DNA from: Gemmatimonadetes bacterium T265
GTDB lineage: Bacteria > Gemmatimonadota > Gemmatimonadetes > Gemmatimonadales > Gemmatimonadaceae
Length of the DNA: 64,000 bases
Assembly (NCBI GenBank): GCA_019973575.1
Contig: BPUI01000001.1
Location: 1,872,342 to 1,936,341 of the forward strand
Direction: 5' to 3'
The notes beneath the pieces are model-generated. The model saw only the letters and a program-made list of their open reading frames with translations, did not search any database and was not told the DNA's origin. Position 1 is the stretch's first letter. Every line of letters begins with the position of its first letter. Below, piece after piece: positions 3,565 to 27,312 of the stretch. The position numbers and the translations under genes are program-made.

Positions 3565-3574
3565 GGGGCGCTCC

Positions 3575-3997
3575 TCAGCCAGGCAGGCCCGCGGCCTCGG
3601 CGTCGCCCGACTCGCTCAGGTCGACGACCTTCACCCACACCGAGCGCGTCGCCTTCGAGTAGAACAGGTGGATGCGCACGTCCTTCGGCGGGCGGAACGC
3701 GAAGCGGAAGTTGAACACCGCGTCGAGCTGCCGCGCGCGCACGCCGTCCTGAAAGCGGCCGAGGAACTCCCCGACCTGCGTGCACGGCGCGACCTCGCGG
3801 AAGAAGTTCCGCCCGACGGTCTCGCCCGCCGACAGCCCGCTCAGGCGCGCCTCCGCGCTGCTGTAGCGCAGGACCGTGCCCCGCGAGTCGAGTTGGATCA
3901 TGCCGTACGGCAGCGCGTCGAGCTCCGCGGAGCTGAGCGCGTCGGCGGCGTAGACCACGTGGTCGAGGCCGCGCTCGGGAGAGGTGTGGGTCGCCAT
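3575..3997 (-). CDS. Photoactive yellow protein-like PAS sensor
   Basis: This 140-residue single PAS domain resembles photoactive yellow protein (PYP, about 125 residues) along its length. The segments YGMIQLDSRG, NFFREVAPCT and WVKVVDL align with PYP without gaps in the core. With an offset of three, the chromophore cysteine Cys69 of the Halorhodospira protein corresponds to Cys72 here, Tyr42 to Tyr45 and Glu46 to Glu49. Thr50 becomes Ser53 and Arg52 becomes Leu55. PYP binds p-coumaric acid through that cysteine and responds to blue light. Genes for making and activating the chromophore (tyrosine ammonia lyase, p-coumaryl ligase) are not in this window. The ATG at 3997 gives the family's length. 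The gene runs straight into the PAS-GGDEF-EAL gene. Homology is firm; photochemistry is inferred. Confidence 0.88.
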   Translation of the reverse strand: MATHTSPERGLDHVVYAADALSSAELDALPYGMIQLDSRGTVLRYSSAEARLSGLSAGETVGRNFFREVAPCTQVGEFLGRFQDGVRARQLDAVFNFRFAFRPPKDVRIHLFYSKATRSVWVKVVDLSESGDAEAAGLPG

Positions 3998-4053: not shown

Positions 4054-5871
4054 TCACGCCGCCGACTCGGGGGGGTCGGTGCGGTCGAACACGCGGCCGA
4101 GCCAACGGACGACCGGCCAGAGCACGGCCACGGCGCCGAGCGTGAAGAGGACGGCCGGCGGTACGGCGATCCACGGCCCGAGTCGCGCCGCGCTCGTCCG
4201 TTGCAGCGCCCACGCGATGCCGACGGCGACTCCCGCCGGCACGGCGAGCAGCACCGCCGACGTGGCGAGCGTGAGCGCCGATCCGACGAGGTTCTGCCCC
4301 GTCGCCTCGATGCCGCGCGCCGCCGCGCCCGGCGCCCGCGTCCACGCGGGGAAGAGCAGCGCCATTCCGTTCTGGACCGTGAGCGTCGCCGCGTTCAGCC
4401 CCGGCAGGGCGAGGGCGAGGGCGAGCGCGTACACCAGCCGCTCGCCCACGGTCAGGCCGAGTCCGTCGCGCGACCCGGCGGCCGCGGCGAGCAGGAAGAG
4501 CAGCGCCGCCACCTGCACCGCCGTGAGCGCGAGCACCGACGCGCCGATCTCCGCAGCGACGAGCGTGCGCCCGGCAAGCGGGACCGCCTTGAGGAAGGGC
4601 AGGTGCGGCAGGTCGTGCCGCAGGTCGTAGCGCACCCAGAGCGGCCCCGCCGCGACGAGCAGCGCCCCCCACGTCGCCGCGACGAGCGTCGCCAGCTCGG
4701 CGAAGCGCGGACTGCGCGCCGCGAGGACGAGGGTGCCCGCGGCCGCGACGCCGAGCACGGTGAGGATGCGCACGAGCGCCGTCGCGCGCGTGAACGCGAG
4801 CCAGTTCTTCCAGACGAGCGCCACCGCCGGCGCCCCGCCGGGCGCGAGTGGGATCGCGCGCCGGGCGGCGGCGCCCGGCGCCCGGGTGCGCGCCCGCGCG
4901 CGCGCCCGGCGCCGCGCCGCGCCCGCGTCGAGCGCCGCCTCCGTGATTCGCGCGTCGACGCGCACCACCCACGCGTAGTGCGCGACGACGAGCAGCACCG
5001 CGGCCGGGAGCGTCGCGGCCCACGCCCGCCGCGCGGCCCCGGCGCCGAACGCCGCCGCGCCATACGCGCCCGCGCTCGGTCCGCCTAACGCGAAGAACGG
5101 CCCGAGCAGCGCGCGCGTCGGCCAGAGCGCCCACCGCGCGGGCGTCCGGTCGAGCGCCGCGCCGAGCGCGGTCCCGAACACGAACGGCCCGGCGTCCCAC
5201 GCCGCCGCGAGCGCGCCCGCGCGCGGCGCGAGCGTGAAGGCGACCGCGCCGCCCAACGCCGCGAGGACCAGCGCGGGCGCCCAGCGCGCCGCGCGCGCCG
5301 GCGCCGCGCCGTCGCCGGCCGGCGCCGTGACGAGCGCGGCGGCCAGCCGGTGCAGCTGCAGCGTCGAGAGCAGCAGCCAGACCGCGAGCGCCCGCGCCCA
5401 CGCCCCCGCGTGCCCCGCGCCGCCGCGCAGCAGCACCGTAAAGAGCACCGTGTTGAACAGCACCGCGAGCTGCGCCCGCCACAGCTTCCAGTGCACCAGC
5501 CCGCGGCGCGAGACCGGGGCGGGGAAGAGCAGGTGCTCCTCCGCCGGCGTGAACGCGAGCACCGCCGACGCCGCCGTCCCGCCGCGCGCGAGCCACCAGA
5601 ACGCGGGCAGGCCTAACACGACGAGCGCGGCCACCGGCAGCGCCCACCCCGCGCCCGAGAGCAGCGCCCCCGCCGCGGGGCGCGCCGCCGGCCGGAACAG
5701 GAACCACCACATGTACGCCGCGCCCGCCGCCCCCGCGACGAGCGCCCGCGGCGAGCGCAGCCGCCGGAGCTGCACCACGACTCGGTTCTTGAGCGACGCG
5801 GCCGTGAGGTACGCGACCGCGCGGAGCGGCGCCCCCGCACCCGCCCCGCCACCGTCCACACCGCCGGTCAC
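4054..5871 (-). CDS. ABC exporter membrane subunit
   Basis: This polytopic membrane protein of about 605 residues is rich in hydrophobic segments (for example residues near LVAGAAGAAYMWWFLF, LPVAALVVLGLPAFWWL and the C-terminal block). It resembles the putative ABC-exporter permease family (ABC_export type). I chose the GTG at 5871 because it forms a GTGA overlap with the stop of the upstream ATPase gene, a classic translational-coupling arrangement; the frame stays open further upstream but inside that gene. It should pair with the ATPase at 5868-6629. Substrate unknown. The PYP-like gene begins 56 bp after its stop, so some co-transcription is possible. Confidence 0.75.
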   Translation of the reverse strand: MTGGVDGGGAGAGAPLRAVAYLTAASLKNRVVVQLRRLRSPRALVAGAAGAAYMWWFLFRPAARPAAGALLSGAGWALPVAALVVLGLPAFWWLARGGTAASAVLAFTPAEEHLLFPAPVSRRGLVHWKLWRAQLAVLFNTVLFTVLLRGGAGHAGAWARALAVWLLLSTLQLHRLAAALVTAPAGDGAAPARAARWAPALVLAALGGAVAFTLAPRAGALAAAWDAGPFVFGTALGAALDRTPARWALWPTRALLGPFFALGGPSAGAYGAAAFGAGAARRAWAATLPAAVLLVVAHYAWVVRVDARITEAALDAGAARRRARARARTRAPGAAARRAIPLAPGGAPAVALVWKNWLAFTRATALVRILTVLGVAAAGTLVLAARSPRFAELATLVAATWGALLVAAGPLWVRYDLRHDLPHLPFLKAVPLAGRTLVAAEIGASVLALTAVQVAALLFLLAAAAGSRDGLGLTVGERLVYALALALALPGLNAATLTVQNGMALLFPAWTRAPGAAARGIEATGQNLVGSALTLATSAVLLAVPAGVAVGIAWALQRTSAARLGPWIAVPPAVLFTLGAVAVLWPVVRWLGRVFDRTDPPESAA

Positions 5872-6629
5872 ACTACCCCGGCCGCCCCCGGCGCCGCCCC
5901 CGACGTGAGCGCCTCGAACACCTCCTCGAGCGAGCGTCCGGCGAGGTCGGGCCGCTCCGCGACGAGGTCGGCGAGCGCGCCCTGCGCCGCCACCGCCCCG
6001 CGGTGCAGCACCACGACCCGCGTGCAGAGCTCCTCCACCAGGTGCAGCAGGTGCGACGAGAGCACCACCGCCGCCCCCGCCGCCGCCCGCGCGGCGATCG
6101 TCGCCTTCATCCGCCGCATGCCTAACGGGTCCAGCCCCGTCAGCGGCTCGTCGAGCAGCAGCAGCCGCGGGTCGTGCAGCAGCGCGCACGCGATCGCGAG
6201 CTTCTGCCGCATCCCGCGCGACAGCTCGCCCGGCAGCGCCCCCCGCTTGTCCCCGAGCTCCAGCTCGCCCAGCAGCGCGGGCGCGCGCGCCGCGGCGTCG
6301 CGCACCCCGTACAGCCGCGCCACGAACCGCAGGTGCTCGTCCACCGTCAGGTAGTCGAACAGGTGCGGCTCGTCGGGCACGAAGGCGAGCGCGCGCTTCG
6401 CCGCGACCGGGTCGCGCGCCACGTCCACCCCCGCCACGTACACGCCCCCCGCGCTCGGGCTGAGGATCCCCGCCGCGCAGCGGAGCGTCGTCGTCTTGCC
6501 AGCGCCGTTCGGACCCACGAGTCCGACGATCTCCCCGGCCGCGACCGCGAACGAGACGCCGCGCACGGCCAGGTGGCCGTCGTAGCGCTTGCGCAGGTCG
6601 CGGAGCTCGAGCACGGTGTCGGGCGGCAC
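5868..6629 (-). CDS. ABC transporter ATP-binding protein
   Basis: This ATPase of about 253 residues has all core motifs: Walker A GPNGAGKT at residues 39-46, a signature in LSRGMRQKLAIA (degenerate LSGGQ) and Walker B LLLLDEP followed by the D-loop and a switch His (SSHLLH). It is typical of CcmA/NatA-like ATPases of two-component exporters. The GTG start at 6629 places the first strand where expected, and the frame is open further upstream without family similarity. It overlaps the permease gene by 4 bp. The 147-bp gap to the divergent EAL-HDOD gene should contain its promoter. Confidence 0.92.
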   Translation of the reverse strand: MPPDTVLELRDLRKRYDGHLAVRGVSFAVAAGEIVGLVGPNGAGKTTTLRCAAGILSPSAGGVYVAGVDVARDPVAAKRALAFVPDEPHLFDYLTVDEHLRFVARLYGVRDAAARAPALLGELELGDKRGALPGELSRGMRQKLAIACALLHDPRLLLLDEPLTGLDPLGMRRMKATIAARAAAGAAVVLSSHLLHLVEELCTRVVVLHRGAVAAQGALADLVAERPDLAGRSLEEVFEALTSGAAPGAAGVV

Positions 6630-6776: not shown

Positions 6777-8126
6777 ATGCGCACCCTGTTCCGCCGCGCC
6801 GCGCCCGCCGCCCCCGCCGTCGTCCCCGCGCCGCCCGCGGCGCCCGCCCACACTGCGGCCGCGGACGGCGTGGGAGGGATCCACGACGTCTTCGTCGCGC
6901 GCCAGCCCATCTTCGGCGAAGACGACCGGCTGTTCGCGTACGAGCTGCTCTACCGCAGCAACGCGGTCCAGACGTTCGCCGACGGCGTGTCGCAGGACCA
7001 GATGTGCACCGACACGGTGCTGCACACGCTCATGACGATCGGGCTCGCGCCCCTCACCGGCGGCACGCTCGCCTTCGTCAACCTCACGCGCGAGTTCCTC
7101 CTCAACCGGCTCTACGAACTGTTCGAGCCGAGCACCGTGATGATCGAGCTGCTCGAGACCGTGGAGCCCGACGACGAGGTCGTCCGCGCGTGCGAGCGCC
7201 TCGTGTCGAGCGGGTACTCGCTCGCGCTCGATGACTTCGTCAACCGGCCCGCGTACGAGCCCCTGCTCAAGCTTGCGAGCGTCGTGAAGATCGACGTGCT
7301 CGGCAAGAGCGAGGCGGAGCTCAAGCGCACGGCCGACGAGCTGCGCCCCTACGGCGTCCGCCTCCTCGCCGAACGCGTCGAGACCTCCGAGGTCCGGGAC
7401 AGCTGCCGGCGGCTCGGCTACACGCTCTTCCAGGGCTACTTCTACAGCCGCCCGCAAGTCGTCTCCCACCGCGAACTCGGCGTCGAGCACTCGACGCTCG
7501 TACGCCTGATGAACATGCTCGATGACCCGGCTGCCGCGGACGCCGACATCGAACAGGCATTCAAGGGCGACCCGTCGCTCTCCTACAAGCTGCTCCGCAT
7601 CGCCAACTCCGCGGCGTTCTCGGGGCGCGAGGTGTCGTCGATCGGGTTCGCCCTGCGGATGGTCGGGCGCAAGCCGCTGCACCGCTGGCTCACCCTCCTC
7701 TTCGTGTCGAGCATGGCCGCACGCAGCGGCATTTCGCGCGAGCTGGTGCTGGCCGCACTCGCCCGCGGCCGCCTTTCCGAACTCGTCGGCGAGCGCGGCG
7801 CGCAGGCGCGCGGCCTGCGCGCGAGCATGGTTGCGACCGGGCCGCTCTTCCTCACCGGCCTCTTCTCGCTCCTCGACGTGCTGCTCCGCATGCCGATGGA
7901 CGGGGTGCTCGCGCGGCTCGCGATCTCGGCCGAGGTCAAGGCCGCGCTGCTCACCCGCTCCGGGCCGTACGCGGCGACCCTCGCGCTCGTCGAGGCGCAG
8001 GAGCGCGGCGACTGGGACGCGGTGGGCGACGCGGCGGCGGCGGTCGGCGTCGCGCCGTCTGTGGTCAGCAGCGACTACACCACGGCCCTCGGCTGGGCGC
8101 GCGACCGGCTCGCGAGCGCGGCGTAG
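6777..8126 (+). CDS. EAL-HDOD domain signalling protein (YuxH-like)
   Basis: This 449-residue protein has an Ala/Pro-rich leader (1-35), an EAL-like domain (about 38-245) and an HDOD domain (about 250-445). The EAL triplet region reads YELLYRS, as in the YuxH/CdgJ-type subgroup, and key metal ligands look incomplete. It is therefore more likely a c-di-GMP-related or protein-binding regulator than an active phosphodiesterase. The HDOD part (LMNMLDD through the helical C-terminus) is a metal-free HD-related fold used in regulation of motility and other behaviours. The start is the ATG at 6777; the frame is open upstream but without similarity. The gene diverges from the ABC exporter operon. Confidence 0.88.
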   Translation: MRTLFRRAAPAAPAVVPAPPAAPAHTAAADGVGGIHDVFVARQPIFGEDDRLFAYELLYRSNAVQTFADGVSQDQMCTDTVLHTLMTIGLAPLTGGTLAFVNLTREFLLNRLYELFEPSTVMIELLETVEPDDEVVRACERLVSSGYSLALDDFVNRPAYEPLLKLASVVKIDVLGKSEAELKRTADELRPYGVRLLAERVETSEVRDSCRRLGYTLFQGYFYSRPQVVSHRELGVEHSTLVRLMNMLDDPAAADADIEQAFKGDPSLSYKLLRIANSAAFSGREVSSIGFALRMVGRKPLHRWLTLLFVSSMAARSGISRELVLAALARGRLSELVGERGAQARGLRASMVATGPLFLTGLFSLLDVLLRMPMDGVLARLAISAEVKAALLTRSGPYAATLALVEAQERGDWDAVGDAAAAVGVAPSVVSSDYTTALGWARDRLASAA

Positions 8127-14140: not shown

Positions 14141-14497
14141 ATGAGCCCCTTCACCTTCGCCGCCAACCACACCGCCGACCTCGTCCCCGCGCCCGCGCGC
14201 GCCGACGTGCCGGTGACCCGCCCGACGTACGCCGAGCCGGTGACACCCATGCGACGCCGCCCCGACCCGCGCGACGCGAGCGTGCACGCGGCGCTCGACG
14301 TGCCGCGCCTCACGATCACGCGCATGGCCGACGTCCTCGGCGTGCCCCGCGCGACCCTCGAGGCCTACCGCCTCGGCACCCGCCGCATGCCCCCCGCGGT
14401 GCGCGCGCGGCTGGCGGAGTTCCTCGCGCGCCACGCCGAGACGATGCGCGAGGTCTCCGCGGCGCTCCTCGCCGACGACACGCCGACCGACCGTTAG
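14141..14497 (+). CDS. Small HTH-like protein, function unknown
   Basis: This 118-residue protein has an N-terminal disordered-looking part. Its C-terminal half (about residues 55-100: ITRMADVLGVPRATLEAYRLG) reads like an XRE-type helix-turn-helix followed by a polar helix. It may bind DNA or act as a small adaptor; nothing shows its target. It ends tail-to-tail with motB, the two stop codons overlapping by 4 bp. An internal ATG at about codon 37 would give a more compact HTH protein. The call is moderate because the protein is short and in a high-G+C region, but its sequence is not low-complexity. Confidence 0.55.
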   Translation: MSPFTFAANHTADLVPAPARADVPVTRPTYAEPVTPMRRRPDPRDASVHAALDVPRLTITRMADVLGVPRATLEAYRLGTRRMPPAVRARLAEFLARHAETMREVSAALLADDTPTDR

Positions 14498-15354
14498 TCG
14501 CGCGGCCCGCCGGCCGCCGGACGTCCGCGGTCGAGCGCGGCCAGCTCCGGGGCCCCGGCGTCGTCGGGCGCCGGGGCCTGGCCGCGGTACGGCAGCAGGA
14601 TGCTGATCCGGCGGTTCGCGGCCGCGTACGGGTCGTCGGGCACGCGCGGGCGGCGGTCCGCCATCCCGCGCACCTCCTCGACGCGCGCGGCCGGCAGCCC
14701 GGAAGCCTCGAGCACGCGGCGCGCGGCGTTGGCCCGCTCGGCGGAGAGGTCCCAGTTGTTGTACGCCGCGCCGGCGCCGTACGTCGCGGCGTCCGTGTGC
14801 CCCTCGATGACCACCGGGTTGCCCAACGTGCTGACCGCCGGCGCGATGAGCTGCAGCGCGATCACCGCGGCGGGCTTCATCGCCGTCGACCCGACCGGGA
14901 AGAATGTCTCGCCGTCGCCGCTCTCGACGAGCTCGATGCGCAGCCCGTCGTTGGTGACGGTCACCTCGACTTTCGCGTGCAGCTGCCTCAGGCTTGGGTC
15001 GCCCGTGATGAGCTGCTTGATCTGCGCCGCGGCCTTCGACATGGCCTGCGACTCCGCGCCGCGCATGAGGATGCGCACCTGCTGGGTCGCCGCCTTGGCC
15101 GGGCTCGCGCCGCTGGAGATGGGGCTCGCGCCCGCGCCGTACCCCTTCTTGTAGCCGACCGGGTTGGAGAAGTAGCCCTCGACGGCCTGCTTGACCTTAT
15201 CGTCCATGCCGAGGATCCACATCACCATGAAGAAGGCCATCATCGCGGTGACGAAGTCGGCGTAGGCGACCTTCCACGAGCCGCCGTGGTGCCCGCCGCC
15301 CGCGACCTTCTTCTTGCGGACGATGACGATCTTTTTCGACTTGTCGGCGGCCAT
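14494..15354 (-). CDS. motB: Flagellar stator protein MotB
   Basis: This 286-residue protein has a Lys-rich cytoplasmic start, one transmembrane helix with the proton-binding aspartate (Asp33 in YADFVTAMMAFFMVMW), a linker/plug region and a C-terminal OmpA-like peptidoglycan-binding domain (VIEGHTDA, LSAERANAARRVLEASG). It anchors the stator to peptidoglycan and with MotA conducts ions to turn the flagellum. It lies 3 bp downstream of motA in the same operon. The transmembrane segment has no obvious sodium-type signature, so proton use is the default assumption. Confidence 0.96.
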   Translation of the reverse strand: MAADKSKKIVIVRKKKVAGGGHHGGSWKVAYADFVTAMMAFFMVMWILGMDDKVKQAVEGYFSNPVGYKKGYGAGASPISSGASPAKAATQQVRILMRGAESQAMSKAAAQIKQLITGDPSLRQLHAKVEVTVTNDGLRIELVESGDGETFFPVGSTAMKPAAVIALQLIAPAVSTLGNPVVIEGHTDAATYGAGAAYNNWDLSAERANAARRVLEASGLPAARVEEVRGMADRRPRVPDDPYAAANRRISILLPYRGQAPAPDDAGAPELAALDRGRPAAGGPRD

Positions 15355-15357
15355 CGG

Positions 15358-16215
15358 TTAAGCGGCCTTCTTGCGCGTGAGCTCCTCGAGTTCGGTGAAA
15401 CTCGGGCGCTCGTGCGGGTCGATGTTGCGGCGCGCGAACTCGACGGCGGTCATCGGGGCGTCGCCGCGCGCGAAGGAGAGGAGCGCGGTGCGGATGCAGC
15501 ACATGTAGGCGTGCTCCGCCTTCACGCGCCCCTCGATCGCCTTCGCGATCGGGCCCATCACCCCGTACGACATGAGGATGCCGAGGAACGTGCCGACGAG
15601 CGCGGCGGCGACGTGCTCGCCGATCTCGCTCGCCGCGCCGCCGATCGCGCCCATGGTGATGATCACGCCGAGCACCGCGGCGACGATCCCGAACCCGGGC
15701 ATCGCGTCCGAGACGCCGTTGATCGCGTGCGGGACGTGCATGTTGGCCTCGAGCTGCTGGTCGAGGTCGACGTCGAGGATCTCGGCGAGGTTGTGGTCCT
15801 CGACCGCGCCCGAGAGCAGCACCTTGAGCGTGTCTGCCAGCATGCAGAGCGCGTGGTGGTTCTTGACGAAGCTCGGGAACTTGGAGAAGATGTCGCTCTT
15901 CTCCGGGTCCTCGATGTGCGACTCGAGGCCGACGAGCCCGTCCTTGCGCGCCTTCTGGAACGTGTCGTAGAGGACCTGGAGGAGCTCCGAATACCCGGCC
16001 TTCGCGTACGGGTTAGGCTTGAGCAGCCCGACGGTCGCGGCGACGGCGCTCTTGAGCGTACCGAGGCCGTTGGCGATCACGAACGCGCCGAGCGCGGCCC
16101 CGCCGATGACGATGAATTCGTTGACCTGGACGAGCACGGCGAGGTGGCCGTGGTTCAGGACGTACCCGCCGATCACGCTTCCGAAGACGATCAGCAGTCC
16201 GATGGCGACGAACAC
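15358..16215 (-). CDS. motA: Flagellar stator protein MotA
   Basis: This 285-residue protein has four hydrophobic segments (near residues 2-20, 30-50, 170-195 and 200-220) and the long cytoplasmic loop that contacts the rotor protein FliG. MotA landmarks include GTLKSAVAATVG, the PGFGIVAAVLGVI helix and LVGTFLGILMSYG. It forms the stator pentamer around a MotB dimer. Its start faces the divergent histidine-kinase-like gene across about 100 bp, which should contain both promoters. Confidence 0.96.
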   Translation of the reverse strand: MFVAIGLLIVFGSVIGGYVLNHGHLAVLVQVNEFIVIGGAALGAFVIANGLGTLKSAVAATVGLLKPNPYAKAGYSELLQVLYDTFQKARKDGLVGLESHIEDPEKSDIFSKFPSFVKNHHALCMLADTLKVLLSGAVEDHNLAEILDVDLDQQLEANMHVPHAINGVSDAMPGFGIVAAVLGVIITMGAIGGAASEIGEHVAAALVGTFLGILMSYGVMGPIAKAIEGRVKAEHAYMCCIRTALLSFARGDAPMTAVEFARRNIDPHERPSFTELEELTRKKAA

Positions 16216-16316
16216 GGGGCGTGGGGCGGGAGTGCGGCGGGCGGGCGTACGGCGGGGGGACGTGCCGGGGGCGAGCCCTGTGGAGTATCGGCCACACCAG
16301 GGCCCCGCTGGACCGC

Positions 16317-16976
16317 ATGCGTAGCAGCGACGCCGCGGATTCCGTCACACCGGGCGGCCTCGGACCAGACGATCCCACGCCGGACGACGCCACGGCGTAT
16401 ACGTCGCTCCGCACATGGGTGGCCGCGCGCGACGCGGTGCTGCGCGGCCTCGTGCACGCGCTCAGCAACCGTGTGGGGACGGTGGTTGCCGCGGGCGGGA
16501 TGCTCGAGGCGGGGAGCGCCGAGGTCGCGGGCCGGGTGTTGGGCGGGGAGGCGGAGCGGCTCGAGGCGTTGCTCGCGCAGTTTCGCCTTGCCACGGCGGA
16601 TCCCTTCGGCGACGCGGCCGCGCCCGAGCCCCTGCTGCTGGCTGAGGTCGTCGGCGAGGCCGTCGCGCTGCACGGGTATGCGGACGCGGCGGGCGAGGGG
16701 GCCGTGGCGCTGGCGAGGGTGGGCGAGGCGCCGCCGGTGTTCGTGTCGCGCGTCGGGCTGCTGCACGCGCTGCTGGTCCTGCTCGCCGACGCGGGGGGCG
16801 GGACGACTACCCTGCGCGCCGACGTTGGGGGGGCGGGGGTCGTGGACGTGAGGACCGATCCGCCCCCGGGGGGCGCGGGCGCGAGCGCGGCCGCGTGGCT
16901 GCTGCGGGCGTCGGGTGTGCGGGCGGCGGGTGGCGCGTTGACGCTCCCGCAGTTGGGGGCTGAGCGCGCGCGTTGA
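16317..16976 (+). CDS. Orphan histidine-kinase/phosphotransferase-like protein
   Basis: This protein has about 219 residues when started at ATG 16317; the frame is open upstream to 16221 but with Gly/Arg-rich sequence unlike the rest. Residues 40-65 (VLRGLVHALSNRVG) look like a dimerisation and phosphotransfer helix with candidate phospho-His47 and an Asn four residues later. The C-terminal part has the outline of a HATPase fold but I cannot find N, G1 and G2 boxes. The architecture resembles ChpT-type histidine phosphotransferases or a degenerate kinase. No sensor domain is present. Location next to motA suggests, but does not prove, a motility role. Confidence 0.5.
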   Translation: MRSSDAADSVTPGGLGPDDPTPDDATAYTSLRTWVAARDAVLRGLVHALSNRVGTVVAAGGMLEAGSAEVAGRVLGGEAERLEALLAQFRLATADPFGDAAAPEPLLLAEVVGEAVALHGYADAAGEGAVALARVGEAPPVFVSRVGLLHALLVLLADAGGGTTTLRADVGGAGVVDVRTDPPPGGAGASAAAWLLRASGVRAAGGALTLPQLGAERAR

Positions 16977-17040
16977 CGACGCCGATTCGTCGGTGCGGGG
17001 AGCCGCGGGCGGCATGGCACATGCCCCTCGCCCGACCACC

Positions 17041-18186
17041 ATGACCAAGTTCGCCGTTGCTGTTGCCACGACGGCGGCCGCCGTGATCGCGGCCGCGCCG
17101 CACGTTGTGCCGAAGTCGCCCGCCGTCAGCTCTCGGAGTGCCGCGGTGCGCGCGCCGGCGCACCTCGCCCAAGTCGCGACGTTCCCGCACCAGGTGACCG
17201 GCGTGTCGGTCACCCGAGACGGCCGAATCTTCGTCAATTTCCCGCGCTGGACCGAGGACGCGCCGGTCTCGGTCGGCGAGGTGATGAAGGACGGGTCGGT
17301 GCGGCCGTATCCGGACGCCGAATGGAACGCGTGGCGGAACGCGAAGAAGAATCAGATCTCGCCCGCGGACCACTTCGTCTGCGTACAGAGCGTCGTCGCC
17401 GACGGGCGCGGGAACCTGTGGGTGCTCGACCCGGCGGCGCCGGCGAACGGCGCGCTGGTCCCCGGCGGGCCGAAGCTCGTGCGCATCGACCTCGCGACCA
17501 ACCGTCCCGCGCAGACGATCCGCTTCGACACCACGGTCGCGCCCAACGGCTCGTACCTGAACGACGTGCGCTTCAGCCCGGACGGGCGGACCGCGTACAT
17601 CACCGACTCGGGCGGGCAGGGCGCGCTCGTCGTCGTCGACCTGCAGGCCGGGACCGCGCGGCGGCTACTCTCGGCCCACCCGAGCGTGCAGGCGGAGAAG
17701 GACGTCGTCGTGCACGCGGACGGGCGCGAGCTGCGGCGCCCCGACGGGCGCGGCGTCGAGTTCGCGTCCGACGGCATCGCGCTCTCGCCCGACGGCGAGT
17801 ACCTGTATTACCAGGCGCTGACAGGGCGCACGCTGTACCGGATCGCGACGGCCGCGCTCCGCGACACGTCGTTGCCGGCCGACCAGCTCGCCGCGCGCGT
17901 GGAGCGCGTGGGAACGACGAACGTGGCCGACGGGCTCTGGATGACGCCCGAAGGGCGGCTCTACGTGAGCGCCCCGGAGGAGAACGCCGTGAAGGTGCGC
18001 GAGGCCGACGGCCGGATGACGACGGTGGTCCGCGACGCGCGCCTCCGCTGGCCCGACACGTTCTCCCAGGGGGCGGACGGGGCCGTGTACGTCACCGCCT
18101 CGCACATCCAAGACATGAACTGGTACAAGCCCGGCAACCCGAAGGCGCTGACGACGCAGCTCTTTCGAGTCGACGGGAGTCGTTAG
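17041..18186 (+). CDS. Yellow/major royal jelly protein family secreted beta-propeller
   Basis: This 381-residue protein has a Sec-type signal peptide (about residues 1-30, Ala-rich). Repeated blades follow, with phrases such as VTRDGRIFVNFPRW, NDVRFSPDGRTAYITDSG and GALVVVDL. These match bacterial members of the MRJP/Yellow family, which share the six-bladed propeller of SMP-30-like proteins. Likely periplasmic or secreted; the ligand is unknown. I preferred the ATG at 17041 over the upstream in-frame GTG because the signal peptide begins there. It converges on csrA with a 4-bp stop overlap. Confidence 0.85.
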   Translation: MTKFAVAVATTAAAVIAAAPHVVPKSPAVSSRSAAVRAPAHLAQVATFPHQVTGVSVTRDGRIFVNFPRWTEDAPVSVGEVMKDGSVRPYPDAEWNAWRNAKKNQISPADHFVCVQSVVADGRGNLWVLDPAAPANGALVPGGPKLVRIDLATNRPAQTIRFDTTVAPNGSYLNDVRFSPDGRTAYITDSGGQGALVVVDLQAGTARRLLSAHPSVQAEKDVVVHADGRELRRPDGRGVEFASDGIALSPDGEYLYYQALTGRTLYRIATAALRDTSLPADQLAARVERVGTTNVADGLWMTPEGRLYVSAPEENAVKVREADGRMTTVVRDARLRWPDTFSQGADGAVYVTASHIQDMNWYKPGNPKALTTQLFRVDGSR

Positions 18187-18452
18187 GCGTGCTCGGACGA
18201 CGGCCGGGCGGCGGTCGCGCCCGGTGCGGGCGGCAGCAGGGCGGCGAGCGCGGCGGCGGCGGCGGCGGCCGGCGCGGCGGCGCGGCGGTTCTCGTCGGCG
18301 ACCTGGCGCACGATCTCGCCGCGCAGGATCGTGACCTCGTCGGGCGCGGAGAAGCCGAGGCGCACGCCCCCCTTTTCGCAGGCGAGCACCATCACGGTGA
18401 TGCCGCCGTCGATGACGACGGTGTCGCCCGGCTTGCGGCCGAGGATCAGCAT
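18183..18452 (-). CDS. csrA: Carbon storage regulator CsrA
   Basis: This 89-residue protein has about 50 N-terminal residues matching CsrA (MLILGRKPGD, RLGFSAPDEV, ILRGEIV), including the RNA-contact residues Leu4, Arg6 and the Arg of ILRGEI. An Ala-rich tail of about 35 residues follows, longer than the usual 60-70-residue family members. CsrA binds GGA motifs in leader RNAs and often controls flagellin translation. It is the last gene of the flagellar operon, its start codon sharing one base with the flgK stop. No fliW (its usual antagonist) is seen in the window. Confidence 0.95.
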   Translation of the reverse strand: MLILGRKPGDTVVIDGGITVMVLACEKGGVRLGFSAPDEVTILRGEIVRQVADENRRAAAPAAAAAAALAALLPPAPGATAARPSSEHA

Positions 18453-19975
18453 CAGACCATCTCCACGAGCGTCTTCATCATGTCGTCGACCGTGGAGACG
18501 ATCTTGGCCGCGGCGGCGTACGCCTGCTGCGCCTGCATCAGGTTCGTCAGCTCCTCGTCCGTGTTCACGCCGTCCACGCTCTGGCGGCGCGTGCGGGCCT
18601 GGCCGGCGAGGGTCGTGTGGACCTGCGCGTCGTCCGTGGCGGCCTTGACCTGCACGCCGAGGCCGGTGACCGTCGCGTTGTAGAAGTCGGCGAACGTGGT
18701 CGCACCCGTGGAGGCCGCCCGCGCGGGCGTGGTGGTCCCGCCGGTCGCTGTGGCCGGCCGGCTGCGGTCGGGCACGGTGAAGCTGACGGTCACACCGCCG
18801 ACCGACGACGTCGACGCGGTGCGCAGCCCGGCCAGGGCGAGCGCGAGGTCGTTGTTACTCGGCTGCTGCACGCTGGACGAGGTCGGCAGCGCGGTGGCGT
18901 CGGCGACGAGGCTCGTGTTGACGCTGATCGTGCGCGCCGTGACGGTGCCGGCCGACGGCGGCGTGGCGAACGGGTCGGCGGTCGGCGTGAACGTGCTGTC
19001 GAGCTTGCTGACGAAGAACGGCCCCGCGCTCGCGCCCGAGGCGTCGTGGCCCTGCGCGACGACCTGATTCACGGCGGCGGCGAGCGTGTTGGCGAGCGCG
19101 TCGAGCTGGTCCTGCACCGACTGCGCGCCGCCGTTGAGGAAGTCGGCCATCGCCTGCGTCGAGCCGCCGGACGGCGCGAGCGCGTGGTTGGGCTGGTCGG
19201 CGAAAGCGAGCGCGACCTTGCCGTTCGCGTCGGTCGTGCGTTGCAGCTGACGCGCGTCGATCCCGTCGACGAGCGTGTAGGAGCCGAAGGTGACCTGCAT
19301 GGAGCCGTCGGCCTTCGTGAACGTCCGCACGGCGCCGAGCTTGGCGAGGTCGTCGACGGCGTTGTCGCGCGCGTCGCGGAGGTCGTTCGCCTGCTGGCCG
19401 CCCGCCTCGCTCGAGACGATGCGGCCGTTCAGGTCGGCAATCTGCTTGGCGAGGGTGTTCGCGCCCGCGAGGCTGTTGTCGAGCGCGGTGGTCGTCTGCG
19501 TGCGGAGGTCGGCGAGGCGCGAGTCGAACTGGTTGAGCATCGTCGCCGCCGCGGCGCCGCGCTGGACGACGACGGCCTTCGCCGCGCCGCTCGCCGGCTG
19601 GGCGGCGAGGTCGGACCAGCCGGACCAGAAGGCGTCCATCGCCGACGCGAGGCCGGTGTCGGACGGTTCGCCTAACACGTCCTGGACCGAGCTGAGGAGC
19701 GACTGGCTTTCCGTGGCCGCGCTCTCGCTCCCCGTCTCCTGGCGGACCGACGTGTCGAGGAGCTGGTCGCGGCTGCGGGTGATGCCGGCCACGGTCACGC
19801 CGCTCCCGACGGCGCCGTAGGTGAACTCGATCGGCGTGGAGGCCGCAAGGTCGACCGTCTGGCGCGAGTACCCGGGCGTCTGCGCGTTGGCGATGTTGTT
19901 GCCGACCGTCGAGATGACGACCTGCTGCGCCGTGAGCGCGGAGCGCGCGGTGCCGAGGACCGAGTTGAGCGACAT
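18452..19975 (-). CDS. flgK: Flagellar hook-associated protein 1
   Basis: This 507-residue protein has the N-terminal flagellar rod/hook motif (NNIANAQTPGYSRQ at about 27-40) and a C-terminal coiled heptad region ending LMQAQQAYAAAAKIVSTVDDM, the paired ends that form the D0 helices. It joins hook to filament after secretion through the flagellar export gate. The length is near the Salmonella protein. It lies downstream of flgN, its likely chaperone. Confidence 0.95.
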   Translation of the reverse strand: MSLNSVLGTARSALTAQQVVISTVGNNIANAQTPGYSRQTVDLAASTPIEFTYGAVGSGVTVAGITRSRDQLLDTSVRQETGSESAATESQSLLSSVQDVLGEPSDTGLASAMDAFWSGWSDLAAQPASGAAKAVVVQRGAAAATMLNQFDSRLADLRTQTTTALDNSLAGANTLAKQIADLNGRIVSSEAGGQQANDLRDARDNAVDDLAKLGAVRTFTKADGSMQVTFGSYTLVDGIDARQLQRTTDANGKVALAFADQPNHALAPSGGSTQAMADFLNGGAQSVQDQLDALANTLAAAVNQVVAQGHDASGASAGPFFVSKLDSTFTPTADPFATPPSAGTVTARTISVNTSLVADATALPTSSSVQQPSNNDLALALAGLRTASTSSVGGVTVSFTVPDRSRPATATGGTTTPARAASTGATTFADFYNATVTGLGVQVKAATDDAQVHTTLAGQARTRRQSVDGVNTDEELTNLMQAQQAYAAAAKIVSTVDDMMKTLVEMV

Positions 19976-19996
19976 GGGCGGGTGGCGCGCGGCGCG

Positions 19997-20521
19997 TCAG
20001 GCGCGGCGGTCGACGAGGGCCGCGGCGGCGCCGCCGGTCGCGCCCGCGGCGGGGAGGCCGCGCAGGGCGCGCGCGTGCGCGTCGCCCCCGGCGAGGGCGT
20101 CGCGCAGGACGCGGCGGTTGACGTCGACCTCGCGCGCGAGCGCGGTCGCCCCGGCGAGCAGGGCGTCGCAGGCGGCGCAGAGCGCGTCGGCGCCGGGGTC
20201 GACCACGGCGGCGGCCGCCGCGCGCTCGCGGAGGCGGCGGACCGGCACGTCGTCGCTGCCGGCGACGAGGCGCCCGAGCTGGCGGCGCCGCAGGCGCGCC
20301 TGGCCGAGCGTGGCGAGCAGGCGGTGCGTGGCGAAGACCGTGTCGTCGACCGTTTCGAGATCGTCGCCGCCCACGGCCGCGCGCTGGCGGCGCATGGTCG
20401 CCGCGAGGTCGTCGACGAGGCGCTGCTCGGTGCGCAGCGCGTCGAGCAGCGCGGCGACGACGGCCGGCGCCGCGGCCGCGGGTGCGGACGTGGGAACGGC
20501 GGGTAGGGGCAGCGTGACCAT
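19997..20521 (-). CDS. flgN: FlgN-like export chaperone
   Basis: This 174-residue, mostly helical Ala/Leu/Arg-rich protein has the family-like stretch VVAALLDALRTEQRLVDDLAATMRRQ. Conservation is weak, as usual for FlgN. The position directly before flgK, whose product FlgN binds and delivers to the export gate, is the strongest evidence. Confidence 0.7.
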   Translation of the reverse strand: MVTLPLPAVPTSAPAAAAPAVVAALLDALRTEQRLVDDLAATMRRQRAAVGGDDLETVDDTVFATHRLLATLGQARLRRRQLGRLVAGSDDVPVRRLRERAAAAAVVDPGADALCAACDALLAGATALAREVDVNRRVLRDALAGGDAHARALRGLPAAGATGGAAAALVDRRA

Positions 20522-20560
20522 GGCCGGGAGGACGGGGGAACGCGGACGCGGCGCGCGGGG

Positions 20561-20944
20561 CTAGGGCGTCGTGCGCTCGGGCGACTTGCGCAACGACGCC
20601 CCGCCCGTGGGCGGCGTCACGCCGGGGGCGGCCGCCGGGGCGGCGGCCGTGCCGCGGGCGCGGAGCAGGTGGTGGTAGATCGCCTCGCCGATGCCGTGCG
20701 TGCTCGCCGCGCGCGGGTCGCTCGCGAGGTGTTCGTCGAGCAGGCCGGTGAACATCTCCTGCGCGCTACTCCCGCCGACGACGCCCTGGTCCTCGGGAAC
20801 GGTCTCGCGCATGGCCTTGAAGAGCTGCTGCGTGAAGACGCCTTCGAGCTGGCGGGCGGCCTTGCGCAGCCGGCCGTCGTCGGTCGCGCCGGCGGCCGTC
20901 GAACTGCCGGGACCGGCGGGCGGGCGCGCGATCGGGTCGGTCAT
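20561..20944 (-). CDS. flgJ: Rod-binding protein FlgJ (short form)
   Basis: This 127-residue protein covers only the rod-binding/capping domain (LEGVFTQQLFKAMRETVPE, GSSAQEMFTGLLDEHLA). The C-terminal muramidase domain found in enterobacterial FlgJ is missing, as in many phyla where a separate enzyme opens the peptidoglycan. Its ATG overlaps the flgI stop by 4 bp. Confidence 0.88.
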   Translation of the reverse strand: MTDPIARPPAGPGSSTAAGATDDGRLRKAARQLEGVFTQQLFKAMRETVPEDQGVVGGSSAQEMFTGLLDEHLASDPRAASTHGIGEAIYHHLLRARGTAAAPAAAPGVTPPTGGASLRKSPERTTP

Positions 20945-22377
20945 CGCACGGTCACCTCGGCCGCGAGCGCGCCGACCTCGCGGAGGGCGGCGAAGATCGC
21001 CGCGATGTCGCCCGCCGGAGTTTGGACCGCGTGGAGCGCGGCCGCGACCTGCTGGACCGAGGTGCCGGGCGCGACACGGACGTCGCCCGACGGTGCGCCC
21101 GGCGCCGCGGCGCCGCCGGCCGCGATCGAGAGGGTGACCGCGCCGTGGCTCACGACGGCGGCGCCGACGACGAGGTCGCCGCCGGCGACGACGGTGCCAT
21201 CGCGCGCGTCGATGACGACGCGGGCGGCGCGGTCGGGGCTCACGCGGAGGTCGCCGAGGCGGGCGAGGGCGGCGGCGCGGCCGGCGGCGGGGAGGTTGAG
21301 CGTGACGGCGCCGGGGTCCTCGACCGCCGCGGCGGTCGGGCCTAACGCGGCGTTGACGGCGGCGGCGATCTTCGTCGCGGTGCCGATGTCGGGTTCGCGG
21401 AGGAGGAGGCGGTTGCTCTGGGCGAGCGTCGGGCGCGGCAGGTCGGCCTCGAGCTGGCCGCCGCCGGGGAGGCGCACGGTGGTCTCGACCGCGGGCGGGC
21501 CGTAGCGGTTGCGCGGGTCGACGCCGTCCGAGATCATCAGCGCGCCCTGCGCCGCGGCGACCGGGCGCCCGCCGGCCTCGGCGAGCAGGGGCGTCATGTA
21601 GAGCATCCCGCCGCGCAGCGAGCGCGCGTCGCCTAACGACGCGACCTGCACCTCGAACCGGCCGCCCGCGCGCAGGTAGGGCGAGACCTCGGCGGTGACG
21701 AGTACCGCGGCCGCGTTGCGGGTGCGGACGAGCGCCGAGGGCACCTCGACGTTGAAGTTGCGGAGCAGGTTGACGACGCTCTGCACGGTCATGCCGCCGG
21801 TGCCGGCCGCGCGGTCGCCGGAGCCGTCGAGGCCGACGGCGAGCCCGTAGCCCATGAGGCGGATCGGCGCGGCGCCCTCGGCCTGCGTGAGGTCGCGGAT
21901 GCGCACGCCGCCGTCCGGTCCCGCCGCCTGCGCGGCCGCCGGGCGCGCGCCCGCGAGTGCCGCGCCGAGTGCCGCGCCGAGCGCCCAGACGAAGGCGAGG
22001 GCGTAGCGCCGGCCGCGCCCGGTCGCGTCGCGCACGATGTCGACGCCGACCGGCGGCGTGAGGCGCTCGCGGTCGGCGACGCCGGGGATGCGGAATCCGA
22101 CCGGGCGGTCGCCGGACGTCGCGGCGGGGCCGTCCGCCGACGGGCGGCCGGCCGCGGCGTTGCGGCGGGCCTCGTCGGCGCGTTCCTGGGTGCGCTCGGG
22201 GGCGAGGCGGAGGAGCGCGCCGCGCGCCGCCGCGTCGGTCGCGCGGCGCGCGGCGAGGCGGCGGGCGTCTTCGGCCGCGAGGGCGCGGCCGATCGCGGCG
22301 TAGTCGGGGCGCGCGGCGGGGGCGGCCGGCGCGCGCCGGAGCGCGGCGCGGAGGCGGCGGGCGAGGGCGCGGAGCAT
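20941..22377 (-). CDS. flgI: Flagellar P-ring protein FlgI, with N-terminal extension or internal start
   Basis: The frame encodes 478 residues. From about residue 150 it is canonical FlgI (RIRDLTQAEG, NPLIGYGL-like LMGYGLAVGLDGSGD, NFNVEVP, ending VGALAAEVTVR). A secretion signal (YALAFVWALGAALGAALAG, cleavage after AAAQA) lies at about 124-150, which is abnormal for a protein exported by Sec. Starting at an internal GTG (22035) would give a normal FlgI of 364 residues. However, the first ATG lies only 8 bp after the flgH stop, as expected for operon coupling. The 114 extra codons are Arg/Ala-rich and unrecognised. They may be a cytoplasmic leader, a separate in-frame peptide or unused. Confidence 0.85.
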   Translation of the reverse strand: MLRALARRLRAALRRAPAAPAARPDYAAIGRALAAEDARRLAARRATDAAARGALLRLAPERTQERADEARRNAAAGRPSADGPAATSGDRPVGFRIPGVADRERLTPPVGVDIVRDATGRGRRYALAFVWALGAALGAALAGARPAAAQAAGPDGGVRIRDLTQAEGAAPIRLMGYGLAVGLDGSGDRAAGTGGMTVQSVVNLLRNFNVEVPSALVRTRNAAAVLVTAEVSPYLRAGGRFEVQVASLGDARSLRGGMLYMTPLLAEAGGRPVAAAQGALMISDGVDPRNRYGPPAVETTVRLPGGGQLEADLPRPTLAQSNRLLLREPDIGTATKIAAAVNAALGPTAAAVEDPGAVTLNLPAAGRAAALARLGDLRVSPDRAARVVIDARDGTVVAGGDLVVGAAVVSHGAVTLSIAAGGAAAPGAPSGDVRVAPGTSVQQVAAALHAVQTPAGDIAAIFAALREVGALAAEVTVR

Positions 22378-22385
22378 CGGCGCGG

Positions 22386-23084
22386 TCAGGGCCAGAAGAT
22401 GCTGATGACGCGGGTGAGGAGGCCCTGCTTCGGCTTGCCGAGCGGGCCGGGCGACTGGTAAGTGAGTTGCGCGTCGGCGAGGCGGGAGCTCTCGACGGTG
22501 TTGGCCGCGCTCACGTCCTGCGGGCGCACGTAGCCGGCGAGGGCGACGTTCTGCTGCCCCTTGTCGACGTCGATCCGCCGCACGCCCTTGACCTGGAGCG
22601 TGCCGTTAGGCGCGACGGCGACGACGCGGACGCTCATCTCGCTCTGGAAGCGGTTCTCGCGGCGCGCCTCGCCGCGGTTCTCCGCGTCGGCGTTGTTGTT
22701 GGAGTTGACGCCGGCCGAGGTGGAGAGGCCGGCGCCCGGCTTGGTGATCGTGAAGCCGAGGTCGCGCGTGCGGCGCTGCGAGTCGAGGTCGTCCTTGATC
22801 GCCGTCGAGATGGTGTAGTCGTCGACGAGGACGGTGAGGATGTCGCCGACGGCGAAGTCGCGCCGGTCGCCGGTCCAGGCGCGGAGGCCGGGGCGGAGCG
22901 GGGCGGGGGTCGCCGCGAACGCGGGCTCGGCCGGCGCCGCGGCCTGCGCGGCGACGTTAGGCGCGCCCGCGCCGGGTTTGGGCGCGGGGGCCTGCGCGGG
23001 CGCGATCGCGGGGGCGAGCGCGACGCCGCCCAGGCAGAGGCCGAGGCGGACGGGGAAGCGGAGGCCGAAGCGGGACGCGGTCAC
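22386..23084 (-). CDS. flgH: Flagellar L-ring protein FlgH
   Basis: This 232-residue protein has a signal peptide (residues 1 to about 31, probable cleavage after APAQA) and FlgH core segments (VGDILTVLVDDYTI, GEARRENRFQSEMSVRVVAVAPNG, GYVRPQDVSAANTV). It forms the outer-membrane ring, implying a didermic cell. Unlike enterobacterial FlgH it has no good lipobox: the only early cysteine (Cys17) follows Leu16. Its start overlaps the flgA stop by 4 bp. Confidence 0.93.
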   Translation of the reverse strand: MTASRFGLRFPVRLGLCLGGVALAPAIAPAQAPAPKPGAGAPNVAAQAAAPAEPAFAATPAPLRPGLRAWTGDRRDFAVGDILTVLVDDYTISTAIKDDLDSQRRTRDLGFTITKPGAGLSTSAGVNSNNNADAENRGEARRENRFQSEMSVRVVAVAPNGTLQVKGVRRIDVDKGQQNVALAGYVRPQDVSAANTVESSRLADAQLTYQSPGPLGKPKQGLLTRVISIFWP

Positions 23085-23632
23085 GGCAGGGTGACCACGC
23101 CGGGGGCGGCGACCGTCCCCTCGAGGCGGCGGCGGGCGTCGACGCGCACGGCGACGCGGGCGCCTAACGCGGCGTCGGCGGCCGCGGTCCCGGCGAGGCG
23201 GAGGGCGACGCCGCCCTGCCGCCAGACGACCGCGACGGCGTCGCCGGCGCGCACGGCGGCGGGCGGGACGACGGCCGGGGCGCGGAGCACCTCGCCCGCG
23301 GCGATCACGCGGCGCGTGGTCCAGCCGACGAGGCGCGGCGCGAGCGTGTCGCCCGGGGCCGCGTCGATGTCGGCGGCGGCGAGCGCCTCGCCGCGGGCGA
23401 GCGCCCGGGCGGCGCGCGGCGCCGATGCGGGCCGCGCGGACGTCGTCGGCGCGGACGCGGCCGGCTGCGCGAGCGCCGGGCGCGGGAGCGCGAGCCCCGC
23501 GGCGAGCAGCGGGAGCGGCGCCCAGCGGAGCACGGGCGGGACGGCGCGGCGAGCGGCGGTCCAGCCCGCGGGCCGGTAGCCGCGCCGCGGGCCGCGGGGC
23601 TGATGGAGGTGCTGGTCGACGGCGGCGCGCAT
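23081..23632 (-). CDS. flgA: P-ring assembly chaperone FlgA
   Basis: This protein of about 183 residues has a hydrophobic export segment (LRWAPLPLLAAGLALPRPALAQ at about 36-57, preceded by a longer than usual N-region). The C-terminal FlgA/SAF domain has ALARGEALAAADI, TTRRVIAAGEVLR and GVALRLAGTA. FlgA is a periplasmic chaperone for FlgI. The start shares one base with the flgG stop; the long N-region suggests a possible internal start. Confidence 0.85.
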   Translation of the reverse strand: MRAAVDQHLHQPRGPRRGYRPAGWTAARRAVPPVLRWAPLPLLAAGLALPRPALAQPAASAPTTSARPASAPRAARALARGEALAAADIDAAPGDTLAPRLVGWTTRRVIAAGEVLRAPAVVPPAAVRAGDAVAVVWRQGGVALRLAGTAAADAALGARVAVRVDARRRLEGTVAAPGVVTLP

Positions 23633-24423
23633 CACTTCACCAGGTTGTCGGCGATCTCCGACATGTCCTCGCTGTTCTTGATCGCCTTGGAGTTGATCTC
23701 GTAGGCGCGCATCGCGGTGATCATGTCGACCATCTCCTGCACGATCTCGACGTTGCTGCCTTCGAGCGACCCCTGCACGAGCGAGCCGATGCCGTCGTCG
23801 CCCGGGAAGCCGGCCTGGGCCTCGCCGCTCGCCGGCGTCGGCGAGTAGAGGTTCTGGCCGTCGGCCTGGAGGCCGGCCGGGTTGACGAAGCGGGCGAGCT
23901 CGAGGCGCCCGAGTTCCTGGGGCTTCGACGTGTCGTTGCCGCGCGTCGCGGTCACGACGCCGGTGCGCGAGATGCTGACCGTCGTCGCGTCCTGGGGGAT
24001 GCGGATCGACGGCTGGACGGTGTAGCCCTCGCTCGTCACGAGCACGCCCTGGTCGCTGATCTGGAGCGAGCCGTCGCGCGTGTAGGCGACCTGGCCCTGG
24101 CCGGTCTGGACCTGGAAGAAGCCCTCGCCCTCGATCGCGACGTCGAGCGGGCGGTTGGTCGTTTCGAGGGTGCCCTGCGTGTGGAGGCGGGTGACGGCGG
24201 TGAGCCGGGTGCCGCGGCCGACCTGCACGGCGGGGGTGGTCTGGCTCTCGGCGGCGCCGATAACGGCGGCGCCCTGGACGTTCTGGTAGAGCAGGTCCTC
24301 GAACTGGGCGCGGCTGCGCTTGAAGCCCGTCGTGTTGACGTTGGCGAGGTTGTTGGCGATGACCTCGCTGCGGGTCTGCTGGGCCATCATGCCGCTCGCG
24401 GCGGCGCGGAGTGCCGGATCCAT
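23632..24423 (-). CDS. flgG: Flagellar distal rod protein FlgG
   Basis: This 263-residue protein has the rod/hook N-terminal signature (VIANNLANVNTTGFKRSRAQFEDLLY) and the C-terminal ITAMRAYEINSKAIKNSEDM helix. The length equals typical FlgG (about 260). An AGGAG ribosome-binding site sits just upstream of the ATG. It follows flgF, the usual flgFG order. Confidence 0.96.
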   Translation of the reverse strand: MDPALRAAASGMMAQQTRSEVIANNLANVNTTGFKRSRAQFEDLLYQNVQGAAVIGAAESQTTPAVQVGRGTRLTAVTRLHTQGTLETTNRPLDVAIEGEGFFQVQTGQGQVAYTRDGSLQISDQGVLVTSEGYTVQPSIRIPQDATTVSISRTGVVTATRGNDTSKPQELGRLELARFVNPAGLQADGQNLYSPTPASGEAQAGFPGDDGIGSLVQGSLEGSNVEIVQEMVDMITAMRAYEINSKAIKNSEDMSEIADNLVK

Positions 24424-24444
24424 GCGGGGGTCTCCTGGTTCCCG

Positions 24445-25194
24445 TTAGACGGGTTTGCCGAGTTCGTTCGCGGCGAGGCCGCGGACGGCGTCCATCGTGG
24501 TAACGGCCTTCTGGACCGAGGCGTACGCGCGCTGCACGGCGATCATGTCGACGAGCGCGCCGACCGGGGTGACGTTGCTCTCTTCCAGGAAGCCCTGGCG
24601 CACGCGGCGGTCGGCGGGGGCCACGCTCTGGCGGGCGGCGGGCGGGACGAAGCGGGTCGCGCCGTCGTGGGCGAGCGAAGTGCCGGCCGGGGCCCGCTCG
24701 ACGCGCAGTTGGGCGATCACGCGGTCGCCGCCCGGCCCGCTCGCGCGCACGGTGCCGTCGGGGCCGACGGCGACGGTCGTATTGGGCGGGACGGTGATCG
24801 GACCCGAGGTGCCTAACACCGCGCTGCCGTCGGCGGCGACGAGCCGCCGGTCGGCGTCGAGCTGGAAGGAGCCGGCGCGCGTCCAGCGCTCGGCGGTGGC
24901 GTCTTGGGCTCCGGCCGGCCGGACGACGAAGAAGCCCTCGGACTGTAGGGCGACGTCGAGCGGGTTGCGCGTCTCGCGGAGCGAGCCGGCGGTGAGGTCG
25001 ACCGCGCTCTGGACGGCGGCGCTCTCGCCGGCCGTGCCCGCGCCGACGAGGCGGGCGAAGCCGCGGTCGCCCTTGAAGCCGTCGGTCGAGACGTTCGCGA
25101 GGTTGTTGGCGACGAGTTCCTGCCGGCGCTCCCAGTAGCGGAGCGCGCCGGCGGCGCTGGTGAGGCCGGTGGGGCGAGGCATGCCACGAGCCAA
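24445..25194 (-). CDS. flgF: Flagellar proximal rod protein FlgF
   Basis: This 249-residue protein has the same rod architecture as FlgG: LVANNLANVSTDGFKGDRGF near the N-terminus and VDMIAVQRAYASVQKAVTTMDAV at the C-terminus. Position upstream of flgG separates it from FlgG. It starts the flg run, 138 bp after the glucosidase gene, so a promoter may lie in that gap. Confidence 0.9.
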   Translation of the reverse strand: MARGMPRPTGLTSAAGALRYWERRQELVANNLANVSTDGFKGDRGFARLVGAGTAGESAAVQSAVDLTAGSLRETRNPLDVALQSEGFFVVRPAGAQDATAERWTRAGSFQLDADRRLVAADGSAVLGTSGPITVPPNTTVAVGPDGTVRASGPGGDRVIAQLRVERAPAGTSLAHDGATRFVPPAARQSVAPADRRVRQGFLEESNVTPVGALVDMIAVQRAYASVQKAVTTMDAVRGLAANELGKPV

Positions 25195-25297
25195 GGCAAG
25201 CCATACGCCCCCGACGGTCAGTTGGTCGTCACCGGTTAACTCGTTGTGATGACGCGACTTGACCGAACAGCTGGCGCAGAGGCGAGCGGGATTCCAC

Positions 25298-25314
25298 TCG
25301 GCAGGAACTGCCGA
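25298..25314 (-). terminator. Small hairpin after the GH13 gene
   Basis: There is a perfect 7-bp stem (TCGGCAG, 3-base loop, CTGCCGA) 19 bp beyond the GH13 stop codon on the minus strand. No T-run follows, so it may be a weak terminator or an RNA processing site separating GH13 from flgF. Confidence 0.35.
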
Positions 25315-25332
25315 TCCGGCCGGAGCTGCCGA

Positions 25333-27295: not shown

Positions 27296-27312
27296 GGCCT
27301 ACCCCACCCGCC

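Follow-up and report, generated by a model that had tools for sequence, protein, structure and literature searches.

What does a homologue of photoactive yellow protein (PYP) bind and sense in a Gemmatimonadota genome, where no chromophore genes lie next to it? A preliminary description raised this question for a gene in a 64,000-nucleotide stretch of the genome of Gemmatimonadetes bacterium T265, hereafter the window. We followed the gene through the whole host genome (G000; 5.63 Mb on six contigs, 97.6% complete) and through 395 Gemmatimonadota genomes. The features of the locus are collected in Table 1. Residue numbers such as Cys69, Tyr42 and Glu46 follow the PYP of H. halophila; those of the window protein itself are Cys72, Tyr45 and Glu49.

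Table 1. Coordinates of the pyp gene, its pocket codons and its neighbours in the window
Feature	Position	Strand	Basis and remarks
pyp paralogue, 140 aa	3575..3997	-	ATG at 3997, TGA 3577-3575; TIGR02373, PDB phmmer, tree, fold
Cys72 codon TGC (= Cys69, thioester site)	3782..3784	-	alignment, codon read
Glu49 codon GAG (= Glu46)	3851..3853	-	alignment, codon read
Ser46 codon (position 43)	3860..3862	-	alignment; Asn in all but one other Gemmatimonadota PYP compared
Tyr45 codon TAC (= Tyr42)	3863..3865	-	alignment, codon read
GGAG, ribosome-binding-site-like	3571..3574	-	sequence; follows the pyp stop without a gap, 6 nt separate it from the GTG of the PAS-GGDEF-EAL gene
PAS-GGDEF-EAL protein, 582 aa	1816..3564	-	Pfam EAL 238 bits, GGDEF 133 bits, PAS_4
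Putative ABC-2 type exporter permease	4054..5859	-	weak PF16962, gene calls; 56 nt upstream of pyp
ABC transporter ATPase	5868..6629	-	PF00005 104 bits; first gene of the co-directional run
EAL-HDOD protein, divergent neighbour outside the operon	6777..8126	+	PF08668, PF00563

The gene encodes a member of the PYP family

The gene, for which the preliminary description gave no strand, is read on the minus strand, and the plus-strand frame over 3575-3997 is a meaningless reading. Against the TIGR02373 profile its product scores 103.1 bits (E 1.1e-29, profile positions 9-121 of 124), far above the 33.5 bits reached with the generic Pfam PAS profile. A phmmer search of the PDB returned 33 hits, all of them PYPs, led by the PYP domain of R. 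centenum Ppr (E 1.8e-24) and including H. halophila PYP at about 1e-22. The AlphaFold model of the protein is of moderate confidence (pLDDT 65, pTM 0.59). Its top 40 PDB matches are all PYP or PYP-derived, with best TM scores of about 0.69-0.78, ahead of other PAS structures. In the tree, the window copy nests with the PYPs of Gemmatimonadaceae.

We define the family as PYP homologues with a conserved Cys69 (PMC9664959) and additionally require at least one of Tyr42 and Glu46. The window protein has similarity over the whole domain, Cys69, both Tyr42 and Glu46, and a PAS fold whose nearest structures are PYPs. Based on profile, PDB matches, tree and fold, the gene encodes a true PYP-family member, as the preliminary description had proposed, and an ordinary PAS domain is ruled out.

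The score is below the curated equivalog cut-off of TIGR02373 (143.05 bits), which is passed by none of the 395 Gemmatimonadota genomes. This NCBI equivalog is a narrow model with four seeds that recovers about 20% of PYP homologues (PMC9664959), so missing the cut-off means failing the narrow model and not the PYP family. The suspected Gemmatimonadota affiliation also held: of the 24 full-length relatives, one is in a Kuenenia-labelled MAG and nearly all come from Gemmatimonadota-labelled or unnamed bacterial MAGs, and these labels support a Gemmatimonadota origin of the gene.

The chromophore pocket is intact in a divergent protein

Cys72, Tyr45 and Glu49, which had been singled out as the conserved pocket residues, indeed align with Cys69, Tyr42 and Glu46, and their codons were confirmed. 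The conservation reaches further: all nine pocket residues listed for PYP in PMC12826048 are kept in the alignment (Ile31, Tyr42, Glu46, Phe62, Val66, Ala67, Pro68, Cys69 and Phe96). The preliminary description had also pointed to Thr50→Ser and Arg52→Leu as deviations. The protein does have Ser at position 50 and Leu at position 52, but neither is unusual or a sign of altered function: Leu is the consensus residue of the family at position 52, and Ser50 is a natural variant in two characterised PYPs with absorbance maxima of 432-434 nm (PMC12826048).

The actual oddities of the window copy had been overlooked. They are a long branch, the change of Asn43 to Ser and a β4-β5 loop that is one residue shorter (FRPPKD, compared to FKQxPRD in relatives). 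Furthermore, the protein combines Ala47 with Ser50 where close relatives combine Ser47 with Ala50, and it has neither a Met100 equivalent nor a second pocket cysteine. From work on H. halophila PYP, slow dark recovery is expected when the Met100 equivalent is missing.

Compared to H. halophila PYP (PDB 1nwz/2phy), the window protein aligns over its whole length and has the PAS fold, Cys69, Tyr42 and Glu46 in common, but identity is only ~31-40% and it differs by Ser50, Leu52, Ser43, the missing Met100 and the lack of linked genes for p-coumarate ligase (pCL) or tyrosine ammonia-lyase (TAL). The PYP domain of Rhodospirillum centenum Ppr (PDB 1mzu; ~44-47% identity in the fold alignment) shares Ser50 in addition to Cys69, Tyr42 and Glu46; Ppr is fused to a phytochrome and a histidine kinase, whereas the window protein has a single domain.

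The host genome carries two PYP copies

The preliminary description, confined to the window, missed a second, canonical PYP in the host genome (C1:2700465-2700803), to which the window copy is 53% identical. Both copies fall in the core Gemmatimonadaceae clade, where they pair with a support of 67/82. The terminal branch of the window copy amounts to 0.8-1.25 substitutions per site, compared to almost zero private change in the second copy. The window copy is most likely an accelerated, lineage-specific paralogue of the canonical PYP, the pairing being suggestive and not proof. An ancestral or horizontally acquired copy is, with the same caution about the support value, not supported by a position inside the core clade and nearest to the second copy.

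The window copy shares its clade and the Phe98 and Tyr28 variant with the core Gemmatimonadaceae PYPs, including the second copy. Unlike the window copy, these have Asn43, Ser47, Ala50 and a full-length loop, and they usually lie beside dnaE2.

PYP follows phototrophy in Gemmatimonadota

The view that PYPs are mainly proteobacterial, with scattered cases elsewhere, does not do justice to this phylum. PYP had already been reported there, in fewer than five genomes of a 2022 survey (PMC9664959). We found strong homologues (E < 1e-15) in 51 of 395 Gemmatimonadota genomes, with a total of 67 copies, 53 of which have Cys69. An even draw of 398 genomes from Pseudomonadota, the phylum of the Acetobacteraceae-labelled G395, has PYP in four.

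Within Gemmatimonadota, PYP follows phototrophy: it is present in 31 of the 44 genomes with pufLM and in 20 of the 351 without (Fisher test, p = 1.7e-22, uncorrected for ancestry). Counting by genus, the only correction for ancestry, gives 10 of 14 puf-positive versus 7 of 124 puf-negative genera (p = 3e-8). The photosynthesis genes of Gemmatimonadota came by horizontal transfer. The host itself carries pufL and pufM (C1:2208425-2210153), which makes it a probable anoxygenic phototroph.

A paralogous clade of PYPs in the phylum has lost Cys69 (replaced by Ser or Gly) and has gained Cys98 at a chromophore-pocket position, often together with Cys42 or Cys67 (loci L101, L105, L108, L111-L114, L117, L118, L121 and L123-L126). 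The loss of Cys69 comes with other pocket changes, and Cys98 is a candidate for a relocated attachment site or a redox pair. In one genome without pufLM (G019), a protein of this clade is the only PYP.

Chromophore supply

Chromophore genes are absent from the vicinity of pyp, as the preliminary description had stated: the PF00221 and PF00501 matches of the genome all lie outside the window. Presented as an oddity, this absence loses its force. Among 113 pyp operons, TAL is found in only 5% and pCL in 32% (PMC12826048), so that a lack of linked chromophore genes is normal.

The rest of the genome, to which the preliminary description had looked for TAL and p-coumaryl ligase, did not supply them either. 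A TAL-type aromatic ammonia-lyase was not found in the 97.6% complete genome, where the only PF00221 protein is HutH (TIGR01225 702 bits, cut-off 539; Ser-His selectivity pair), and the PYP-type p-coumarate:CoA ligase model TIGR02372 has no match at E ≤ 1e-20. The host has 25 general AMP-binding proteins. The seven classified are acetate, fatty-acid, o-succinylbenzoate or NRPS-type with no 4-coumarate ligase among them, so a generalist ligase that activates p-coumarate is possible among the 25.

Chromophore supply is a puzzle for the phylum as a whole. Most PYP-bearing genomes have a single aromatic ammonia-lyase, of the histidine type, and one PYP clade comes with a TAL-type lyase. Three genomes have a second aromatic ammonia-lyase (L204 and L210 in G039 and G281, L206 in G244) with a His-Leu pair, which we take to be typical of TAL. 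In G039 and G281, this TAL-like lyase has a Met100-bearing PYP from another clade (L093, L086) within ~4 kb.

A predicted operon with a c-di-GMP gene

Another feature absent from the preliminary description is the gene that follows pyp. On the same strand and only 10 nt after the pyp stop, a GTG starts the gene for a PAS-GGDEF-EAL protein, whose GGDEF, upstream RxxD, EAL and DDFGTG motifs are intact. This protein is likely to be a c-di-GMP cyclase/phosphodiesterase, and the 10-nt spacer with its GGAG points to co-translation with pyp.

A co-directional GGDEF/EAL gene immediately adjacent to pyp is what defines the predicted pyp-GGDEF/EAL operons of PMC12826048, so the arrangement predicted here would be of a known kind. 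Such operons represent 29 of 113 predicted pyp operons and are among the most frequent types; the PYP of I. loihiensis controls biofilm (as cited in PMC12826048). Those operons likewise have a single-domain PYP with GGDEF-EAL immediately downstream on the same strand. The window differs by its phototrophic Gemmatimonadota host, its divergent PYP (Asn43Ser, shortened β4-β5 loop) and the lack of pCL or TAL nearby, and would add a photosynthetic Gemmatimonadota bacterium to the hosts of pyp-c-di-GMP operons.

With a GGDEF/EAL gene adjacent in only two of the 67 Gemmatimonadota PYP loci (the window and L110, a distant relative), a partnership conserved across the phylum is rejected. None of the other genomes searched pairs a GGDEF/EAL gene with the PYP type of the window. 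The host genus is represented by a single genome, so selection on the window copy is not measurable and conservation cannot support the GGDEF-EAL partnership. In L110 (5004-8489), a different type of PYP precedes genes for a GGDEF and a GGDEF-EAL protein, in this order and all co-directional. The L110 PYP groups with a PYP from the Pseudomonadota draw (L134).

MotA/MotB, CsrA and flagellar genes are found within 25 kb of pyp. Together with the EAL-HDOD gene they fit a motility output, as weak evidence. This part of the window (14494-28143) encodes MotA/MotB, CsrA, FlgK, other flagellar proteins and a flagellar-type sigma factor, with an alpha-amylase gene (25333-27192) among them. The window, with 75% G+C, also has a Type VI secretion cluster at 31933-53430 (IcmF-like, VipA, VipB, ClpV-like).

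Proposed mechanism and alternatives

The reading we favour, with a probability of about 0.55, is that the window gene encodes a PYP-family blue-light photoreceptor, a fast-evolving duplicate that switches c-di-GMP with light through the co-translated PAS-GGDEF-EAL protein and hence acts on motility or biofilm. In this reading we infer the holo-protein, the photocycle, the contact with the partner and the direction of the c-di-GMP change. Cys72 would carry p-coumaric acid in thioester linkage, its phenolate held by Tyr45 and Glu49; TAL-type lyase and PYP-type ligase not having been found in the host, p-coumarate would come from uptake or another enzyme. Light would isomerise the chromophore, Glu49 would give up a proton, and the partly unfolded signalling state would act on the PAS-GGDEF-EAL protein, changing the level of c-di-GMP and thereby affecting motility or biofilm. 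The predicted absorbance maximum is near 430-440 nm (from Ser50), and dark recovery is predicted to be slow (from the lack of a Met100 equivalent).

The long branch, Asn43Ser and the shortened loop could also reflect loss of function. The window copy may no longer be a photoreceptor but a relaxed or repurposed duplicate, either decaying or serving as a regulatory subunit in apo form, with light sensing left to the PYP at C1:2700465. Such a fate would fit the contrast in branch length between the two copies, a Ser at an almost invariant position, the deletion of one residue in the loop that covers the chromophore, and the chromophore genes not found in the host genome. We nonetheless consider it doubtful. 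The nine residues of the pocket, Cys69, Tyr42 and Glu46 among them, are all kept despite a terminal branch of 0.8-1.25, which we count in favour of a working photoreceptor; no stop interrupts the reading frame, an intact gene follows closely downstream, and the other pocket changes that come with Cys69 loss in the Cys98 clade are absent here.

A working PYP might instead have the GGDEF-EAL gene as a chance neighbour and its output elsewhere, for example near DNA-damage functions as in the core clade. PYPs of the phylum usually lie beside dnaE2 or uvdE, or alone, and the two GGDEF/EAL loci out of 67 fit this picture, but the 10-nt spacing with a ribosome-binding-site-like motif and the place of pyp-GGDEF/EAL among the most frequent published operon types (PMC12826048) make coincidence unlikely. 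An alternative function for Cys72, with a different ligand or as a sensor of redox state or electrophiles and not of light, seems to us very improbable. No TAL-type lyase was found in the host genome, and methylobacterial PYPs without Cys69 have been suggested to act in redox sensing (PMC9664959), but those proteins have extra cysteines, while the window protein has a complete p-coumarate pocket and no second cysteine in it.

Related PYPs are linked to UV-damage genes

The most interesting lead comes from relatives and not from the window gene. In 30 of 32 core-clade loci from eight genera (window copy not counted), dnaE2 is found 5′ of pyp and runs in the opposite direction, within 250 bp in 27 of the 30 (for example L075, L069, L061 and L100). 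The gene is identified as an error-prone DNA polymerase by NF004225 (1237 bits). Nine core-clade loci also have an imuB-like gene within 600 bp on the 3′ side, which places pyp antisense between imuB and dnaE2. In a second PYP clade, pyp is found 120-225 bp upstream of a co-directional uvdE (uvsE) gene for a UV endonuclease in seven of eight loci (L088, L089, L091, L094, L097, L102 and L103; TIGR00629 159 bits, over the cut-off). In the host, neither PYP lies beside dnaE2 or uvdE, and dnaE2 is on contig C2.

The main texts of the two PYP surveys (PMC9664959, PMC12826048) make no mention of repair genes or polymerases. We did not find the linkage of PYP with UV-damage genes reported, and it is new relative to both surveys. 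The dnaE2, imuB and uvdE neighbours suggest a PYP output absent from these surveys; as two independent linkages, dnaE2 and uvdE are suggestive but not conclusive. We tentatively propose that phototrophic Gemmatimonadota and related members of the phylum may use PYP as the light sensor that governs tolerance of UV damage, with the window copy as a duplicate taken out of this circuit and rewired to c-di-GMP. Blue light would then serve as an early warning of UV, by which lesion bypass or repair is adjusted.

In Gemmatimonas phototrophica, the levels of two photolyases go up within hours of exposure to high light (PMC11406998). Among the terms sought in that paper, none names a light sensor for this response, for which PYPs are an obvious candidate.

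Beyond dnaE2, gene order in the core clade is scrambled, with the most widespread neighbour found in only 3 of 18 loci, so pyp and dnaE2 stay together although the genes around them change. Among relatives that have no PYP, 6 of 11 loci have imuB immediately beside dnaE2.
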